Assembly (NCBI RefSeq): GCF_019669905.1
Contig: NZ_AP019777.1
Coordinates: 3,162,001-3,226,000 of the forward strand
DNA: 64,000 nt
Origin: Methylomonas koyamae
Lineage (GTDB): Bacteria; Pseudomonadota; Gammaproteobacteria; Methylococcales; Methylomonadaceae
Direction: 5' to 3'
Below are positions 11,360-61,063 of this stretch, piece after piece. A program made the translations under genes and the position numbers. How positions within the stretch are numbered: position 1 is the first letter of the stretch; every line of letters starts with the position of its first letter. Below the pieces are notes generated by a model. It was not told where the DNA came from and searched no databases. It saw only the letters and a list, made by a program, of their open reading frames with translations.

Positions 11360-11851
11360 CCAATCGGGCTGAGATCACCGGTTTAAGGAAATACGATAGT
11401 TGCCGGAGTTTTCAGGAACCCATTCGCCAGACAGCGGAAGCCGTTCGACGGCTCTCATTTCGTGCGCAACGGCTGTGTTTGCATATTCCGATGAAACCGG
11501 CCACCTATTCCAATCGCAAAACAGCCCGCAATTGATCGAAACCCGCAAGCGATGCCGACCGGCCAATACCGGTCGAAGATGATGTCGGTGAAATTTTTAA
11601 TCCCTATTTGCAGCGAATGGCAGCTTTTTGGCAAGCAATCTCGTGCCTTCTTCGGCTCAACCCGGTCAAAAGCAGACAGATGGTTTTTCTGACGAAGGTC
11701 TGCTGATATATCTACAGCCGCCAGCCGTAATCCCAAAAAGGTTCGACCACTTATAGGTTGTGCCGAGCCATGCGAGGCGCAACAACCGCGAACTGGGCAT
11801 CTTATGGCCTTGGATGCATTTCCGCAGCGGAGCGTGAGAACGATGAAAATG
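11360..11851. other. Intergenic stretch between convergent genes
   Basis: About 490 bp between the convergent cytochrome lipoprotein and NACHT genes. Apart from the repeat-like segment at 11811-11845, I see no gene, RNA or strong terminator. Open frames here lack start signals and protein features. Confidence 0.4.
11811..11845. repeat. Dispersed intergenic repeat (copy A)
   Basis: The segment CGCAGCGGAGCGTGAGAACG with flanking GCATT closely resembles 61694-61727 (CTCGCGGAGCGTGGGAACGATG region preceded by GCATTCC). In the other orientation these read as CGTTCYCACGCTCCGCG..., a type of short hairpin repeat common between genes in some Gammaproteobacteria. This copy is slightly degenerate. Confidence 0.5.
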
Positions 11852-14800
11852 TTAAAAACTGATTAACGGTAAGTTCATCATTTTAAGTTTCGCCTCATCA
11901 AAGCCACTGGGTTTTGCTTCCAAAAGAGTTTGCCTCAACGTTTCGGCTCTGGCGCGGAGTTGCCATTTATCTTCTGGGATAATCTCAAGCAATTTCTTTA
12001 ATACAATTTCTAAGGCAATCGTTTCTTTTGCGTGGTGTTCGAGTGCGGACACTAAAATTTCAAAAGCTTGTGGCTCGCCATTTTCGCCTGTGACAAATGC
12101 GAATTGCCCAACCATTTGCTCTGCTTCGCTAAACAATAAATCTTGTTGCGACATTCGCACTAACATTGCCGCAAGCCGATATTTGGGTTCTTGGAATTTT
12201 TCTAGTGGGAACAAAACGGCTGGGTTAATTGCCGCTTGCCTACCAGCCGCACACCAAAATCCTGCTAACCGTAACAAGCCCAGTTTTTTTGAATCCTCGG
12301 CAAAAGCATTTAAGATTTGTTCGAGAGGGACGCTTTCAATTTTCCAATTCTGATTTGTAAAGCATAATGTCGGTAATTTCCCGAAACAATCGTAAAATTC
12401 GATAAACTCACTTAATAGTTCAGAGTTAAGTTTTTCTAACTTGATTATAAAGTCTCGATCAAACCATTGCTTTTTGGATGATATGATATTTGACTTTAAT
12501 AAATTAGGATCAAGACTATTTAGCTTTCCTTTACAGGCCCCATAAAACCCGATTATCCTAAGAATTTCTTTTCTTATATCATTGCAAGTTATATCTGCTA
12601 GATATTTAGCCATATGATTTAAAGCAGGTAGGGAAATGATTCCATTTTCTCCGCCGCCAACTTTAGTTTCTATTATTCCCTGAACTAAAGTCACTTCGCT
12701 ACTAAATAATGGATTTATTAATTCTTCAAAACTAATGCCATTGTTTTTCCATTTCGTTTCTAATATAAGCCACTGCTCTGCGTCTCCGAACATGCCTGTT
12801 CGTATTTGTTGGGCAAAGGTCATTAACTCTGCTTTTGTTGTTGCTCTCAACAAATGTACTGCTAGTGGCCAAGGCGACTTTCTTGCTAAGAAAGACCAAA
12901 TTTCCGGCTCACTAGCATCGGCGATATATTCAAGGGCATCGGTGAGATTGTTGACTGTGGGCTCTATATAAAAATCGATTATATTTATTAGTAACTTCCA
13001 GTCGGGATGTAATGAGATTTCCAAGTCTAAAGACTTAATTGTTTGAAGTTCAATATATTCATGTTGCTGTGAAATTGAAATTAATTTAATTGTAATTTCT
13101 GATTCAATAGAATTTACAAATAATTTAGCCTCTATTCGATTAAGCTTATTCCACCAATGTATTAATGTCGGCAACCAAATCAAGCTACAATCATTTGGGC
13201 TATTGAAAAGACTATTATGGCATTCTTTGAAGGATAGATTTGGAAGCAATTTCTCTAATCGATTTGAGGTAAACTTATCCAAAGGGTTATCCAAACCGAA
13301 CCAAGTTGACAATAATATTGCAGCCTCACTTGCTTTTTGTGGCCAATACTTGCATATAACTGACGTTGCCCACTCAATATAAGATTTCTCAAGATACAGA
13401 ACCAGCATCCATGCCGGCAAAGCACGATTCATATTTTGTTGGCCCAGCCAAATATCAATTTGAGATTGAAATACATTTTGCACAGATGTGGAATAAATAT
13501 TTCTAATTCGGCTTTGTAAATTGATTGATTCGGCGATTGGTTGGGCAAGCAGCTCTAACGTACACGCTGTTAAGCTGCGAATGATTAGCGGCATATTGCC
13601 GATGATACCGCTTTCTAAAATTTCCAATGCCAGATAGGAGCCTAATTTTGTTTGTGCTTGTTCATCATCGCCAAAATTCAAATCTTCGCAAAATAGCCTG
13701 ATTTTATCGCGTTGACTACGCAGATGTTCATCAACGAAAAAGCGACCGATTGCAAAAAGCAGAGTGTTTCGCCAGTAAGCTGAATGGGCAATCGTATTCA
13801 AACGCTGAATGATGACATCTGAATCGGCATTATTGGTTAAACACGCCGCCGCCATGTATTCTTGTAGTGAGCGCACATCAAAACTCAATCGGTCTGGTGT
13901 CCGGCTGGTCAGAAAAACTAAACGCTGATTTGCTGCTCCTATAATCAGTTCTTTTTGGTTTTCCAGTTCCGATTGGGATAAGCCGTTTTCTTCTAAACAG
14001 TCGATGACCAGCCTTTCAAATTCTGCAATTGAAATATCTGCTTGGGTTTCCCCTGAGGATTCGGCACGGCATTGCAAAATAAAACCCACCCGATGATGTA
14101 ATGTACCGATGTCAGAACGACGTTCGCTTAAGGCAACATCAAACGGCGGCACAGCCTTATGTAATTCGCGTTCATAAATAATCCGATAATAATCACTGAA
14201 AAGCTGCCAGCGGCTATCGCTGGGTTTGCCGCTGGCGGCTACGACGGTTACCATAAAAGTGACTTGCAATGGCGAACACATCAGTTTGGCAATCAATGGA
14301 TTGTCAACAGCACTGGTCAATGTTGCCATCGCTTCTTTAGCCCGTTGGTGGCCTTTGGTAGCAGTTTTGGCATCGACATAGCGTTGGGCACAAACCAATG
14401 CTTGTTCTTTGGATAAGGGCTGTAAGTATTTATAAGCCACTTCATCGTCATCAAATTCGCCCGCATAACCATCAGGGCGGGAACTTGCCACGATCATTAA
14501 ATCGGCTTCCACATCCCTCGCTTCACTTAGAAAATTGTGGATAGCTGCGATTACTTCACTGCGGTTGCTTGAGGAAGGCACTTCGTCTAAACCATCTAAG
14601 ATAAGCAGCCAAGGGAACAAACCTAACCATTCGCGTAAGTCTTGATGAGAAAGTTCTTCATCTTGGCTTAAGTGACGACGTAAATAGGCGGATAATGTGT
14701 TGACTTCCTTTTTTGCGAGGGCTTTGGCAAAAGCATTTAGCTCGATACGGAACGGATAACGTGGCGTAGTAGGCCAAGACACTTGTTCTTGTTCGCAACG

Positions 14801-15796
14801 GGCTTTGATTTCTTTGATGATATTTTTGACTTTATTCTCTACACGACGAGGTTCGCGCCTATCCAACAACGCAGCACGATGGATTTGAGCGAGAAATTGC
14901 CCTATGGTGGATTTACCGGAGCCTGGGCCGCCTAAGAATACAAAGCGCCCATAAACCCGCTTTACTCTGAGTCTCTGGTTATTTAATGCTTTTCGATACT
15001 CTTCTAACGCCAATGGATCGAGTTTAAAACCTGAGGCTTGAAGAAGCTCTTGTAACGAACTGTGGCGACTTCGGTTAAAATGATGTTGTTCTTCCGGTTC
15101 AAAATTTAGCTTATCGGCAACTGGTAAATCGACGAATACATTGGCTAATCTAATTCTGTCTTCGGAGCGATCACCGGCTTGGCTCAGCTTAGCGTCTTCA
15201 TCCGCCAATATTTCTTTACACAAATAGGCAGTTAAAACAGAATCAGGATTAACGGCTTTGGATAATTTTTTGGCGATGGCTGCCAATAAATCACCAGGGG
15301 TGAAAAAGCATTCAAACCGTTGCCGAATTTCCGCGTAACCATCAACATAGCCCGTCAGTTGATTGGCATCCCAGATGGCAAAATCTTTTAAGCCTATTTT
15401 GTCTTTATAGTCTTTAAATACTTGATTTATGATGTCTTTACCGCCGTTAGTGGCGGAACTGAGTTCAACATTGGTACAGAAAATGAAGTAATCCGGTTTT
15501 GGCTCACGCTTATGGTTTACAACCCATTTTTCGAGTTCGGTTTCTAATTGTGATTTTGCCCATTGTTGGTCTTTTTGGGTTGTTTCGGGTTTTTCTTTGA
15601 ATTTTGCTTGTAGGACTCCATAGCCATTCCAAATATTTTCTGGTGGTGAAGGAAAACTGGCTTTCCCTTCAAAATTAGCTTCTCGCCCTCCATCGGGTCC
15701 ATTTCCGAAAATAGTAACACCAGGGCCAATGACTTTTAAGGCAAGGGCGCGAATGAATTGCTCGAATGAATCGGGTGAAAAGCCTTGGAAGTTCAT
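11852..15796 (-). CDS. NACHT-domain NTPase with PD-(D/E)xK-like N-terminus (candidate NLR-like antiphage protein)
   Basis: 1314 aa. Residues 1-170 look like a restriction-endonuclease-like fold: GPDGGREANFEG (Glu39), then GVLQAKFKE (Gln63, Lys65), the E...QxK pattern of PD-(D/E)xK/Mrr-type nucleases. A NACHT ATPase follows, with Walker A GGPGSGKST (289-297), Walker B LLILDGLDEVPSS (397-409) and a sensor-like VASSRPDGY. The long helical C-terminal part (about 600-1314) has Leu-rich helical repeats and would be the sensing region. Bacterial NACHT proteins (bNACHT) and related STAND ATPases are known antiphage sensors that trigger an effector domain; here the effector would be a nuclease. The gene stands alone, is richer in AT than both flanks, and has no partner gene, which suggests horizontal transfer and a self-contained system. 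Assignment of NACHT is strong; nuclease fold moderate; antiphage role inferred. Confidence 0.82.
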   Translation of the reverse strand: MNFQGFSPDSFEQFIRALALKVIGPGVTIFGNGPDGGREANFEGKASFPSPPENIWNGYGVLQAKFKEKPETTQKDQQWAKSQLETELEKWVVNHKREPKPDYFIFCTNVELSSATNGGKDIINQVFKDYKDKIGLKDFAIWDANQLTGYVDGYAEIRQRFECFFTPGDLLAAIAKKLSKAVNPDSVLTAYLCKEILADEDAKLSQAGDRSEDRIRLANVFVDLPVADKLNFEPEEQHHFNRSRHSSLQELLQASGFKLDPLALEEYRKALNNQRLRVKRVYGRFVFLGGPGSGKSTIGQFLAQIHRAALLDRREPRRVENKVKNIIKEIKARCEQEQVSWPTTPRYPFRIELNAFAKALAKKEVNTLSAYLRRHLSQDEELSHQDLREWLGLFPWLLILDGLDEVPSSSNRSEVIAAIHNFLSEARDVEADLMIVASSRPDGYAGEFDDDEVAYKYLQPLSKEQALVCAQRYVDAKTATKGHQRAKEAMATLTSAVDNPLIAKLMCSPLQVTFMVTVVAASGKPSDSRWQLFSDYYRIIYERELHKAVPPFDVALSERRSDIGTLHHRVGFILQCRAESSGETQADISIAEFERLVIDCLEENGLSQSELENQKELIIGAANQRLVFLTSRTPDRLSFDVRSLQEYMAAACLTNNADSDVIIQRLNTIAHSAYWRNTLLFAIGRFFVDEHLRSQRDKIRLFCEDLNFGDDEQAQTKLGSYLALEILESGIIGNMPLIIRSLTACTLELLAQPIAESINLQSRIRNIYSTSVQNVFQSQIDIWLGQQNMNRALPAWMLVLYLEKSYIEWATSVICKYWPQKASEAAILLSTWFGLDNPLDKFTSNRLEKLLPNLSFKECHNSLFNSPNDCSLIWLPTLIHWWNKLNRIEAKLFVNSIESEITIKLISISQQHEYIELQTIKSLDLEISLHPDWKLLINIIDFYIEPTVNNLTDALEYIADASEPEIWSFLARKSPWPLAVHLLRATTKAELMTFAQQIRTGMFGDAEQWLILETKWKNNGISFEELINPLFSSEVTLVQGIIETKVGGGENGIISLPALNHMAKYLADITCNDIRKEILRIIGFYGACKGKLNSLDPNLLKSNIISSKKQWFDRDFIIKLEKLNSELLSEFIEFYDCFGKLPTLCFTNQNWKIESVPLEQILNAFAEDSKKLGLLRLAGFWCAAGRQAAINPAVLFPLEKFQEPKYRLAAMLVRMSQQDLLFSEAEQMVGQFAFVTGENGEPQAFEILVSALEHHAKETIALEIVLKKLLEIIPEDKWQLRARAETLRQTLLEAKPSGFDEAKLKMMNLPLISF

Positions 15797-15907: not shown

Positions 15908-16155
15908 TACTTCCACAAACGCAGATTCAGCTTATGATCCATTACCGGTCATTTGAAAATTCAACCGACTGTCTCTGTCGGGTCGGTTGGACTCAGTAAC
16001 GAATAGCCGCTTTCAGGTTTCGGAATTCACAGCTTTCCGGCGATGAATCTGAAGAGGTGACGGTATATGCCGCCATCCCAACTTTTTCCAGTGAGAGAAG
16101 GAGCGGATTTAGCTTTTACGAAAGCCTCCTCTGGGTTGAGGGACAAGCAGAGAAG

Positions 16156-27196: not shown

Positions 27197-28315
27197 TTAT
27201 ATGCACTGTGTTTCTAAATTGTTTTCAATAATCGTAGTATTGTAGTCATCTAAGTATCTTTGTAACTCATCCCTGTCAACAAGCTTAATTTTTGCGCTCA
27301 AGGCAAGTTCCTTAGCTGATGGAGTAAAATACCTGTTTGTAATGACCATGCCATCACTACAAGAATAAAATTGTTTAGCCGCTATAACTTCTTGAACGGC
27401 CTTGTTTCCAATATTTCCCTGATAGTTCTTCGCTTGAACAACTATTCTTTGACCAAATGATTCAATAAACAAATCTGCTCCTTGATCTCTTCCTTTAGGT
27501 GTGCTTTTTACTTCGCAACCTTTTTTCTTAAATAACTCAACCAGAAAATCCTCAAATTCGTAACCATCCATCCCATCAATAGCATAAATTGTTACATATT
27601 GATCGGGATTAAAATTCTCAAGTGTATGTTGAAATCTTTTCACCCGTACCTTCAAGTATATATTCTCACAAATATCGTAGACATCTTGATGATTTCGCGT
27701 GGCATAGTCAATATCAGCCATATCTCCATATGGATCAACTTTTCTCGAATACAAGATGCTTTCGTTAAATAAAGCCTTATCATAAATATAATGAATTAAC
27801 AATGGAAGTTCATACCTAAAAAGATCGCCTTTTTCCTCTATCCAGGAAGCCAGCGTTTCCTCTAGTGAATCTTTTATATGATGTGAAGTTATTTCAATAA
27901 AATTATTGAATTTAAAATTAAAATCCGTTGATATAATCAGCTTTTCAAGCAATCCTGGGTATTCGCTAATTTCATCAAACCCCAAGTTAAGCAGCACCTG
28001 TTTAAAAAGATCGAAATCATTAAATTCTATTGAAGATGCAATGTTTCTTAATGCATTTTGAGATGACAAAAAACAATAGTTTATAAAATATGGACTCTTA
28101 AAAGTATTATATTTTGATAAAACAGCATCTAACTTGCCACCTATTTTTTCTTGCTCTTTCTTCTTAAAAAGAATATCCCCAATAAGCCCTTTTGATTTAT
28201 ACTCAAACTCAGGATAATATTCAGGCTTTAGCGGAATATTGCTGTCAACACCTCCGCATTGAGGGCAATTCTTGTGGAAATTATAGGAGTTGCATTTATA
28301 GCACTGATAAATCAT
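27197..28315 (-). CDS. Mrr-type restriction endonuclease-like protein with N-terminal zinc ribbon
   Basis: About 372 aa. The ATG at 28315 has GGA 7 nt upstream; an ATG at 28327 is the alternative. It opens with a zinc-ribbon (CYKC...CPQC), has a helical middle of unknown fold, and ends with an Mrr_cat-like nuclease domain (about residues 250-365): DGYEFEDFLVELFKKKGCEV, GRDQGADLFIE and VVQAKNYQGNIGN, then AKQFYSCSDGMVITN. The D...QxK residues of the PD-(D/E)xK fold are all present. Mrr-family enzymes cleave methylated or foreign DNA; no methyltransferase is nearby, so a type IV-like role is plausible. The gene is very AT-rich compared with the core genome, which points to horizontal transfer. 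The IS630-type element lies just downstream. Confidence 0.82.
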   Translation of the reverse strand: MIYQCYKCNSYNFHKNCPQCGGVDSNIPLKPEYYPEFEYKSKGLIGDILFKKKEQEKIGGKLDAVLSKYNTFKSPYFINYCFLSSQNALRNIASSIEFNDFDLFKQVLLNLGFDEISEYPGLLEKLIISTDFNFKFNNFIEITSHHIKDSLEETLASWIEEKGDLFRYELPLLIHYIYDKALFNESILYSRKVDPYGDMADIDYATRNHQDVYDICENIYLKVRVKRFQHTLENFNPDQYVTIYAIDGMDGYEFEDFLVELFKKKGCEVKSTPKGRDQGADLFIESFGQRIVVQAKNYQGNIGNKAVQEVIAAKQFYSCSDGMVITNRYFTPSAKELALSAKIKLVDRDELQRYLDDYNTTIIENNLETQCI

Positions 28316-28570
28316 ACTTAATTCCATTAAATAAACAAATAAAAACTATAGACTTATTAACCTTTGGCGCTGATTTATATTAGGTTGAACACTAAATTCA
28401 GGCTCCGATTACGCTTCCCTATTCGAAGCTCACAAGCTGGAGCTTGCGAAAGTTGGAGCTCCCAATCAGGAGCTTGAAAGCAAGCAAATCCACCCGTCGA
28501 AAAATATTGTGACAACAACCATCCCCAGCACTAAGGAGGAACCACAGGGTTTCGTTTTGCTCAACCAAGC

Positions 28571-29908
28571 TTACGAACTTCCTTTTTGAAATCGCGTCCT
28601 TATTGCCAAAGTTGCCAGTATCAACACTAAATACGTTCCAAGAAATTGGATGCCCGCCAATATCTGAATAAAAATATTAGAGGTTAAAACTAGAGGCTTA
28701 TGAGAAATAATCCCAAAAGGGGTAAATACGTTTTGTAATGCGAAAATTAAGGATGGACATTTTGCAGAGCACAAAAATTCACCTTGTGTAGGGTCGATTT
28801 TAAATTCAGAAAAGCCTAAGCATTCCGCACCTATAAACATTAGGAATGACATTATGTTGATGCCAAGAAGCCAATATACTGCACGATTGACGTTGCTGCC
28901 GTATTCAGATATCCAGTCGTAACCCAATGAAATAAACCATTCAATGGGAGTCCAACGAACAAAGCAATATTTCCAATACCTAAGCCTACCCGGATGCCAA
29001 GTATCAAAAACTAGCAAGTCATTAAATCCAAGCTTACCTTGCTTGCTCGTTCTGTAGGATTCATTTTGCCATTCCAAGCGAGGAGCCAAAAAGACTTTTC
29101 GATAATATCTCTGTTCCAAGGCAAAAAAATTAGCTTCATCTTGTTGGCCTTTATAAATGGCGGCGAGTTGCCTTAATGTACGCAATGCAATGATTTCTTG
29201 CTGAAAGTCTCGCTGAAATTTGTCATGCCCCATTTCCTCAAAACGTGCGCCTGTAAATGAAGAGCCTTGAGCAAGCTTGGCCTCGTGAAGGATTGGCGCG
29301 CGATTAAAAACCGCGCGACTAAAGTCCGCTCGTCTTGAAAACGTAGCTCTTTGAAATGATGCACCTTTATTAAATCCAAATTCACAATTAACAAAAAATG
29401 CCTCCCTGTAAAAAAGTGCACTATCGAAATTAACTTCCCCATAAAATTTTGTTTCATCGAAACGAATATCTAGACAAAATTTCACATCATAAAAACTGGC
29501 ATTGCCAAGGAATATATTGTGCGCAAACAGGAGATAGTTATCATGGATTTCGGAATAATCGAAGTTAACCGGCGCCCAATCTCGACTGAATTCGCTCTGA
29601 TCAGCTATAAGATCAGCTGGTGAAAGCGAAATAAACAACCCGCGACAATCAATAAACCACTGGCTTTTAAAATTATTTTTCTGTTCTTCAGGTATAGACT
29701 GCCACTTTTCAGTAAATTCCTTTGCATACTCAATAACCTCATTTATGGAGGCTTTTAAAAGCGGTTTATATTCCCCTCCAAAACTGACTAATTTAGGTTC
29801 ATTTTTTTCATCGCGCCATTCTTCTAAACCAGACCTAAACCTTTGTGTCAGTAACTGAAACTCATCTGGTTCAGGTAGATAATTCTTTTGTATGTCTTGG
29901 CCTTTCAT
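28571..29908 (-). CDS. Pentapeptide-repeat protein with C-terminal membrane domain
   Basis: 445 aa. Residues about 120-235 hold pentapeptide-like repeats with A(D/N)F-type units (FDETKFYGEVNFDSALFYRE, ASFQRATFSRRADFSRAVF). A helical segment follows, and then two or three transmembrane helices near the C-terminus (AVYWLLGINIMSFLMFIG, FLGTYLVLILATLAI). The region before the last helices resembles a truncated ion-channel-like pore (LIFALQNVFTPFG), but no selectivity-filter signature was found. Function unknown. It is AT-rich like the Mrr-type gene 255 bp downstream on the same strand, so both may have arrived together. Confidence 0.78.
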   Translation of the reverse strand: MKGQDIQKNYLPEPDEFQLLTQRFRSGLEEWRDEKNEPKLVSFGGEYKPLLKASINEVIEYAKEFTEKWQSIPEEQKNNFKSQWFIDCRGLFISLSPADLIADQSEFSRDWAPVNFDYSEIHDNYLLFAHNIFLGNASFYDVKFCLDIRFDETKFYGEVNFDSALFYREAFFVNCEFGFNKGASFQRATFSRRADFSRAVFNRAPILHEAKLAQGSSFTGARFEEMGHDKFQRDFQQEIIALRTLRQLAAIYKGQQDEANFFALEQRYYRKVFLAPRLEWQNESYRTSKQGKLGFNDLLVFDTWHPGRLRYWKYCFVRWTPIEWFISLGYDWISEYGSNVNRAVYWLLGINIMSFLMFIGAECLGFSEFKIDPTQGEFLCSAKCPSLIFALQNVFTPFGIISHKPLVLTSNIFIQILAGIQFLGTYLVLILATLAIRTRFQKGSS

Positions 29909-59695: not shown

Positions 59696-61063
59696 ATGAG
59701 TATGAGCTGGGAAAAACTGTTATGTTCCGAACGTTTAGGTGCTCGACCTTCAAAAACTGAACTAGGGCGTTCAACTTTTATATCTGATCAGGACAAAATA
59801 ATATTTTCGGGTGCGTTTAGACGTCTCGCAAGAAAAACTCAGGTTCACCCTCTAGCAACAAATGACCATATTCACAATCGATTAACACACAGTTTAGAGG
59901 TGGCTTGTGTTGGTAGAAGCTTAGGAAGTTTGGTTGGAAAAAAGCTGGCGTTAGACGGCAATCTTCCAGAGAAAATATCATCGGGTGATATTGGTGAAAT
60001 TGTTAAAGCGACATGTTTGGCTCATGACATCGGAAATCCACCATTTGGTCATACAGGCGAAGAGGCCATACGCAGTTGGTTTAATAACGAGGGAAGTCAA
60101 TATTTAAAGGAGTTAAGACCATGTGAGGCCAATGATTTAAAAACATTTGAAGGAAACGCTCAAGGACTCAGGATTTTGACATCCGTTGAAAATCACTTGA
60201 ATGAAGGAGGTATGCGACTTACATACGCAACACTTGCGTCATTTATAAAATATCCTTGGACCTCACTTCCTTCGACTGATGGTCAAAGGCCAAAAAAGAA
60301 TAAATATGGAGTATTCACATCCGAATTGGAGATATTTAAGGAAATATCAAATGCCACAGGATTAATGAAAAAAGATGGTGATGACTGATATGCGCGACAT
60401 CCTCTCGTTCATCTTATGGAATCGGCAGATGACTTTTGCTACGGAATTCTTGATCTTGAAGATGGATTAGAAATGAACATCTTAAAATGGGATGATATAT
60501 TCGAAATATTAAGACCTGTTTTAGAAATAAATGGGAGCGATATCTCTGATGTAGAAAATGAGTTGGGAAAAATGAATTATGGACGAAAAATGCCTATTTT
60601 AAGAGGAAAGGTAATCGGCGCTTATGTAGAAGCCGCAGCCGATGCGTTTATAAAACATGAAAACCAATATCTTAATGGTGACCCAACAAGCCTGATCGAT
60701 TTATGCGAGTCTGATGTAAAAAATTCAGTGTACAAGGCCAAGGAAATTGCAAAAGATATAATTTTCAATCACCCGCGAAAAATTGAATTAGAAATTGGTT
60801 CTTACAATGTAATATCCACACTACTAAATGTTATGTGTGAGGCAGCTTTAGAGTGGAGCAAGGACTCCAACAAAATGTCTTTTAGAAGTCAGAGAGTAAT
60901 GGATTTAATTGGAAGAAATACTTTTCATCCTAGAATTGGAGAGAATAGCAATGAACTATCCAAAAATTACATGGTATTGCTAAGAGTCATCGATTTCGTA
61001 AGTGGCATGACAGATAATTATGCAACATTTCTCGCTAAACAATTTAATGGCATGGGAATATAG
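59696..61063 (+). pseudogene. dgt: dGTPase/dNTP triphosphohydrolase gene with one in-frame TGA
   Basis: Full-length reading gives 455 sense codons if the TGA at 60386-60388 is read through. GGAG precedes ATG 59696. HD-domain residues are visible: RLARKTQVHPL, HNRLTHSLEV and CLAHDIGNPPFGHTGEEA. Just after the TGA the frame continues YARHPLVHLMESADDFCYGI, the conserved region holding the last metal/catalytic Asp. The frame is the same on both sides, so one substitution (for example TGG to TGA) explains the break. The 5' part alone lacks the ADD motif and should be inactive. Very AT-rich, unlike core genes. dGTPases deplete dNTPs, and some act in phage defence. Confidence 0.82.

Follow-up and report, generated by a model that had tools for sequence, protein, structure and literature searches.

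According to the accessible part of their published description, the antiphage proteins bNACHT25/32 combine an N-terminal PD-(D/E)XK DNase, a NACHT domain and a C-terminal NCH1 domain and belong to bacterial NACHT clade 6; infection triggers DNA degradation, and D48A abolishes protection (PMC12169576). The available text on Avs1–4 describes nucleases that cut the genomes of phage and host and so bring about altruistic death, with phage terminase or portal proteins, or Ksap1, as triggers (PMC12931631), and bacterial NACHT effectors are often TIR or Sir2, as stated in the portion of another report at hand (PMC10952713). Here we describe a gene of Methylomonas koyamae located at 11852..15796 on the minus strand of a 64,000-nucleotide stretch of contig NZ_AP019777.1 (positions 3,162,001 to 3,226,000; hereafter the window). 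We read its 1314-aa product, P0001, with a probability of roughly 0.75, as a one-gene bacterial NLR-type (nucleotide-binding leucine-rich-repeat-type) immune receptor of the bNACHT-like STAND (signal transduction ATPases with numerous domains) kind, with a DNA-cutting effector.

The open reading frame (ORF) is intact, ATG-initiated and free of internal stops, and P0001 has one match in its own 5.1-Mb genome. ORF reading, the genome search and homologue alignment give a nuclease-NACHT-solenoid protein, i.e., an effector–NACHT–sensor tripartite layout in which the effector and sensor roles are presumed. Homologues matching P0001 end to end (100% of its length) occur from 86% identity downward; among 7989 candidates scored, 936 proteins match at E ≤ 0.001, of which the best 120 were listed. 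An alignment-based search of genome contigs gave 182 relatives, the best 80 of which were kept as loci, whereas a single-protein search of genome contigs with P0001 found none. All features of the gene given below lie on the minus strand.

The presumed effector, residues 1–165 (15302..15796), contains an alpha-beta PD-(D/E)xK core with a D...(E/Q)xK site in its AlphaFold2 model and in PDB structure matches of modest Z. Some members also partially match the PADLOC models Aga_REase-TIR-PNTD1-PNTD2 (best 6e-9) and PDC-S73 (3.2e-8), all within residues 1–179. The E...QxK pattern read in an earlier note on this DNA corresponds to E39...Q63-A-K65, is preceded by D35, and falls within a putative active site defined by alignment conservation, G33-P-D35-G-G-R-E39...Q63-A-K65 (residues 33–65; 15602..15700). 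D35, Q63 and K65 are kept in 80/80 aligned rows, and position 39 is Glu in 74 rows and Asp in 6. The model and the alignment support a predicted PD-(D/E)xK fold with intact putative catalytic residues, and not the unrelated fold that would have spoken against the reading in the earlier note. The nearest nuclease folds among the structure matches include AspBHI, MspJI, Card1 and Can2; the best-scoring enzymes among these matches cut DNA, and the MspJI active site holds a D...QxK motif. No good Pfam model exists for the nuclease piece (Mrr_cat gives a weak partial match in 3/48 members), and in PDB sequences no solved nuclease was found with either the whole-protein or the nuclease-only profile; the sole match to the latter, a gp41 construct (E = 0.061), was judged spurious. 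A helical linker follows (residues 166–280; 14957..15301), the AlphaFold2 model of which has blocks of predicted local distance difference test (pLDDT) values of 51–73 past residue 200.

Residues 281–560 (14117..14956) comprise the NACHT nucleotide-binding domain (NBD) and presumed helical domain 1 (HD1). Pfam NACHT is matched by 32/37 members at E ≤ 0.1 (best 2.6e-10), and P0001 itself scores 19.3 bits, under the cut-off of 26.7. The Walker A and B motifs claimed previously are confirmed by sequence and alignment: in GGPGSGKST (residues 289–297; 14906..14932), G289, G290, G292, G294, K295 and T297 are invariant in 37 aligned members (P0001 included), as is DGLDE (401–405) within the Walker B/NACHT motif LLILDGLDE (residues 397–405; 14582..14608). 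The following region, residues 561–746 (13559..14116), is a probable NLRP-like winged-helix domain and helical domain 2 (WHD/HD2), as judged from alignment and model.

The presumed sensor, residues 747–1314 (11855..13558), is a helical solenoid. The AlphaFold2 model of residues 560–1314, built from 70 aligned rows, has a mean pLDDT of 92.7 and a predicted template modelling (pTM) score of 0.91 and shows a β hairpin at ~887–906 within the solenoid, bearing out the long helical C-terminus noted earlier. Outside 560–746, the C-terminus gave no specific relatives in the PDB, the matches being mostly generic HEAT/ARM-type solenoids; this lack does not show a new fold. To P0001, 36 homologues chosen among the 120 matches listed have median identities of 56% in the nuclease, 35% in the linker, 55% in the NBD, 52% in WHD/HD2 and 22% in the solenoid. 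In P0004, which is 81% identical overall, the corresponding values are 95, 87, 91, 92 and 67%. The least conserved 40 residues are 1041–1080 (12557..12676), with 18% identity to P0004 in a segment where the alignment is uncertain, and conservation returns at residues 1161–1314 (75–92% to P0004). A search with residues 750–1314 only gave 17 proteins among 7997 candidates, all of them already among the full-length matches listed. Such a pattern would be expected of a recognition surface under pressure, and the fast-evolving solenoid is the most interesting part of P0001.

The opposite end of the protein also varies. Several plasmid relatives show no similarity ahead of residue 182; four of them (H16, H17, H21 and H24) carry an HNH endonuclease annotation. 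In the protein of Arthrobacter pAL1 (NC_009453.1), Pfam HNH_2 (residues 45–89; 22.4 bits, cut-off 21) precedes the homologous linker-NACHT-WHD. Of the ORFs at the 80 loci, 47 reach 1240 aa or more, 26 measure 870–1129 aa (mostly from Actinomycetota; L006 and L045 in this class are partial or broken) and the remaining 7 include broken or partial frames. Given the HNH-fronted relatives and the ORF length classes, the two ends of the protein differ between lineages around a retained core. A plasmid relative annotated as a caspase (H18) was rejected as an effector swap; its match covers the NACHT region only, at 22.5%. We tentatively suggest, at somewhat worse than even odds, that P0001 represents a broad uncatalogued bacterial NLR clade whose nuclease slot accepts either PD-(D/E)xK or HNH and whose receptor is a helical solenoid of a new type, in which diversifying selection at ~840–1160, peaking at 1041–1080, marks a pathogen-contact surface comparable to the leucine-rich repeats of plant and animal NLRs. 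If so, close relatives would differ in recognition targets while the killing machinery stays fixed.

A SulP permease gene of the same orientation lies 359 bp upstream of the gene, and on the other side, at a distance of 492 bp, a cytochrome c'-like gene is encoded on the opposite strand. No known defence gene directly adjoins the P0001 gene, and a promoter and terminator scan gave no promoter signal above the shuffled level. Over the 80 loci, neighbour families at a constant position are shared only between near-duplicate or sister loci, and the largest neighbour group touches 9/80 loci at scattered positions. The absence of a partner gene claimed in the earlier note therefore holds, and homologues in these loci have no recurring tie to non-defence operons, the other eventuality that the note had raised. 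Some downstream genes may be local additions that do not hold for the window gene. In two Methylomonas loci (L014:9535-10128 and L023:13877-14470), a 198-aa gene, with Zeta_toxin/AAA_33 similarity in L014, begins 6 bp after the receptor and is a possible lineage-specific partner; in two Riflebacteria loci (L016:13981-15084 and L020:13972-15075), 368-aa genes overlap the receptor by 4 bp, the one in L016 being SIR2-like. The neighbourhood survey proposed earlier was carried out against PADLOC at 1e-10 with 135 nearest-neighbour proteins (138 selected, 3 over 990 aa dropped, after exclusion of 4 near-duplicate loci of the 80) and 123 distal proteins. Matches were seen to 139 models in the nearest set and 106 in the distal set; enrichment in defence islands is not claimable from these counts because many models match one protein and the distal set lies in the same 10-kb flanks. 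When 10 hand-picked near neighbours were scanned singly, 2 matched defence models, one of them SIR2 and the other a type II methyltransferase.

The AT-rich character of the gene is clear: GC is 41.0% in the ORF against 55.8% in the remainder of the window, and third-position GC is 39% in the P0001 core and 34% in the solenoid, compared with 48–70% in four other window genes. GC falls below the flank in 71 of the 74 loci whose flank reaches 6 kb or more (a few near-duplicates included), with a median difference of −6.9 points. Among 61 genomes (its own and 60 relatives), any match occurs in 6, comprising the gene itself, three same-genus copies at 37–38% identity and two weak matches; one same-genus genome holds a further NACHT-only match. 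In one same-genus copy (L111; G005 C75), the matched frame is interrupted by one internal TAG. The SulP gene is present at 93–97% identity in four relatives that lack the receptor, and a fifth (G028) has only SulP end fragments. Synteny with the SulP-bearing relatives stops at window 15978-16152, 180–360 bp before the gene start, and left-flank synteny with one relative (G011) stops at 11549, 303 bp past the gene end. With the right flank sought in 61 genomes and the left in 41, no genome with both flanks side by side was seen; in G024 they match on different contigs. The absence from SulP-bearing relatives, the synteny breaks and the low GC fit a laterally moving accessory gene. Directly at the 3' end of the gene (window 11479-11750) are dispersed repeats of ~90–110 bp, up to 95% identical, which occur at many places in its own and related genomes.

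In a FastTree tree built from the window protein and 67 of the 80 retained loci, 11 named phyla are represented. The phyla are clustered, as indicated by 15 label changes (minimum 10) against a mean of 29 for shuffled labels, and more than one change of phylum label does not prove transfer. Ramlibacter and Archangium copies cluster with the window protein at a support of 100, and a Methylomonas koyamae copy and two other methanotroph copies are in a different group. Outside the tree, the closest named proteins among the matches listed are from Methylovulum and Methylobacter (64–67%). Because these relatives of the window protein are also from methanotrophs and the other copies form a separate group, methanotrophs hold at least two lineages. 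Matches occur in 31 plasmid records, of which 4 are conjugative by prediction; no match covers more than 80% of the query at a single place. On the Klebsiella variicola conjugative plasmid NZ_CP044049.1 (L084), a relative of 1320 aa, with 28% identity across 774 columns, is flanked by IS110 elements; nearby are a Lit-family phage exclusion gene and a run of DEAD/DEAH helicase, ATP-binding and TerB-domain genes. The family matches 4 loci in viral contigs and none in phage records, and a megablast-only search of E. coli genomes with the Klebsiella copy gave no match. In the Mycobacterium kyogaense copy (L057:9041-10000), the ORF runs ~320 aa upstream of the nuclease domain, which is either an extra domain or a wrong start.

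We infer both a defence role and DNA cleavage for P0001. The resting protein would be kept inactive by its solenoid and WHD. An invader molecule, probably a phage protein, would bind the variable middle of the solenoid, upon which the NACHT would exchange nucleotide and P0001 would oligomerise. The clustered nuclease domains could then cut DNA of the phage, the host or both, and infection would be halted by DNA degradation or abortive death, by analogy with bNACHT25/32 and nuclease-bearing Avs. The fold, the NACHT, the sensor-like helical C-terminus and the self-contained gene bear out the earlier proposal of a self-contained system, and its defence and DNA-cutting roles keep the status of predictions.

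Three other explanations bear on the same observations. Modification-dependent AspBHI and MspJI are among the nearest nuclease folds, and together with the weak Mrr_cat match in 3/48 members they would suit a nucleoside triphosphate (NTP)-dependent restriction enzyme, in which an MspJI/Mrr-like domain reads modified or foreign DNA directly and cleavage, with no protein trigger needed, is driven or gated by the NTPase as in McrBC. The NACHT of STAND proteins is a switch, not a translocase, and here it is joined to a probable NLRP-like WHD/HD2; the variable part is the solenoid, and the HNH-swapped relative better fits a generic effector slot, all of which makes such an enzyme unlikely. About equally improbable is an NLR-type receptor whose N-terminal domain is mainly RNA-acting, DNA-binding or regulatory and imposes dormancy without cutting DNA. 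The substrate is not readable from sequence, and the related folds include two proteins of CRISPR cyclic-oligoadenylate signalling, Card1 and Can2. Against this are the four catalytic positions kept in all 80 rows (Glu or Asp at 39), the DNA-cutting activity of the best-scoring matched enzymes and, from the published text available, the degradation of DNA by activated bNACHT25/32 (PMC12169576).

The position between SulP and cytochrome c'-like genes, with no known defence gene directly adjoining, could instead suggest a STAND protein that regulates host housekeeping and has no part in defence. We regard such a regulator as very improbable in view of the relatives that keep SulP without the receptor, the lack of a fixed-place neighbour apart from near-duplicate or sister loci, the low GC in 71/74 loci, and the separation of the window copy from a Methylomonas koyamae copy in the tree.

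Several other AT-rich genes were seen. In the window, a pair at 27197-28327 and 28571-29908 (both minus strand; 33% and 39% GC) encodes a protein with a C-terminal Mrr_cat nuclease (1.2e-30) adjoining a pentapeptide-repeat protein; the Mrr_cat part matches ZorD and PDC-S02 in PADLOC, and the pair looks like a second accessory islet, possibly restriction-type. Two adjoining genes at 59696-61063 on the plus strand (40% and 35% GC), one with an HD domain and the next with a weak HD_assoc match, may belong to a single HD phosphohydrolase system. Elsewhere in the same genome, about 39 kb away from the P0001 gene (L115:4637-9292, minus strand) is a further large NACHT-like ORF of 1168 aa (42% GC; PF05729 match below cut-off), beside a 315-aa ORF (41% GC) without a Pfam match; this pair is perhaps another NLR-type system with a separate effector.

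P0001 has no match in PADLOC at E ≤ 1, matches no NCBIfam model and has only the weak NACHT match in Pfam, so defence surveys with these models probably miss the clade. No Avs-named PADLOC family was found for P0001 (E ≤ 1) or among the 15 listed for 37 members (E ≤ 0.1), the Avs models being presumed present, and no Avs chain was found at E ≤ 1 in PDB sequences with P0001 or a 37-row profile, the PDB copy being presumed to hold Avs. No NCH-type Pfam match was found for P0001 or among the 25/28 families listed for 37 members, in a library that holds NCH2 and in which the presence of NCH1 is unconfirmed; PF22730 (NCC-H, tried as a guess for NCH1) and PF22727 (NCH2) matched neither the genome nor any of 14 controls, so that their silence carries no information. 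In the available text of the DefensePredictor report, PD-(D/E)XK and NACHT domains each occur in validated systems and a P0001-type system is not named (PMC13092281). In the literature covered, which leaves the original bNACHT survey outside and includes sources available in part, we found no description of the P0001 nuclease clade with a P0001-type solenoid. As the earlier note had surmised of the sensor, that clade and its sensor look undescribed in the resources used.

The novelty that the note had attached to the nuclease-NACHT combination itself does not stand, since bNACHT25/32 with antiphage DNase activity are in print (PMC12169576, available part). On that description, they share with P0001 an N-terminal PD-(D/E)XK domain, a central NACHT and a helical C-terminus in one protein; their DNA degradation on activation is proposed for P0001 by analogy, and their NCH1 C-terminus can be compared with P0001 by description only. 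The nuclease of the STAND protein Avs4 (PDB 8dgf) is of the same fold as the P0001 N-terminus, whereas the P0001 NTPase is of the NACHT type, unlike that of Avs4; the comparison with Avs thus yields a common nuclease fold and no sequence match at E ≤ 1. The nuclease fold is likewise common to the AspBHI, MspJI and Mrr-like restriction endonucleases, and P0001 differs from them in having a fused NACHT switch in place of an identified DNA-recognition domain. The PADLOC families Aga_REase-TIR-PNTD1-PNTD2 (by name an Argonaute-associated REase) and PDC-S73 have a distantly related nuclease domain with other partner domains. In the pAL1 protein (891 aa), the linker, NACHT and WHD region are homologous to those of P0001 (26% identity, E = 3e-30), HNH_2 replaces PD-(D/E)xK and the C-terminus is shorter. 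Nuclease-NACHT receptors are already an established antiphage type, and the P0001 clade occurs in 11 named phyla and on plasmids. The sharp difference in conservation between its switch and its fast-changing sensor offers a concrete entry to trigger choice in bacterial NLRs, for which pairs of close relatives differing mainly in the solenoid are natural material. The P0001 family, widespread and uncatalogued, is best regarded as belonging to the known kind of nuclease-NACHT receptors.

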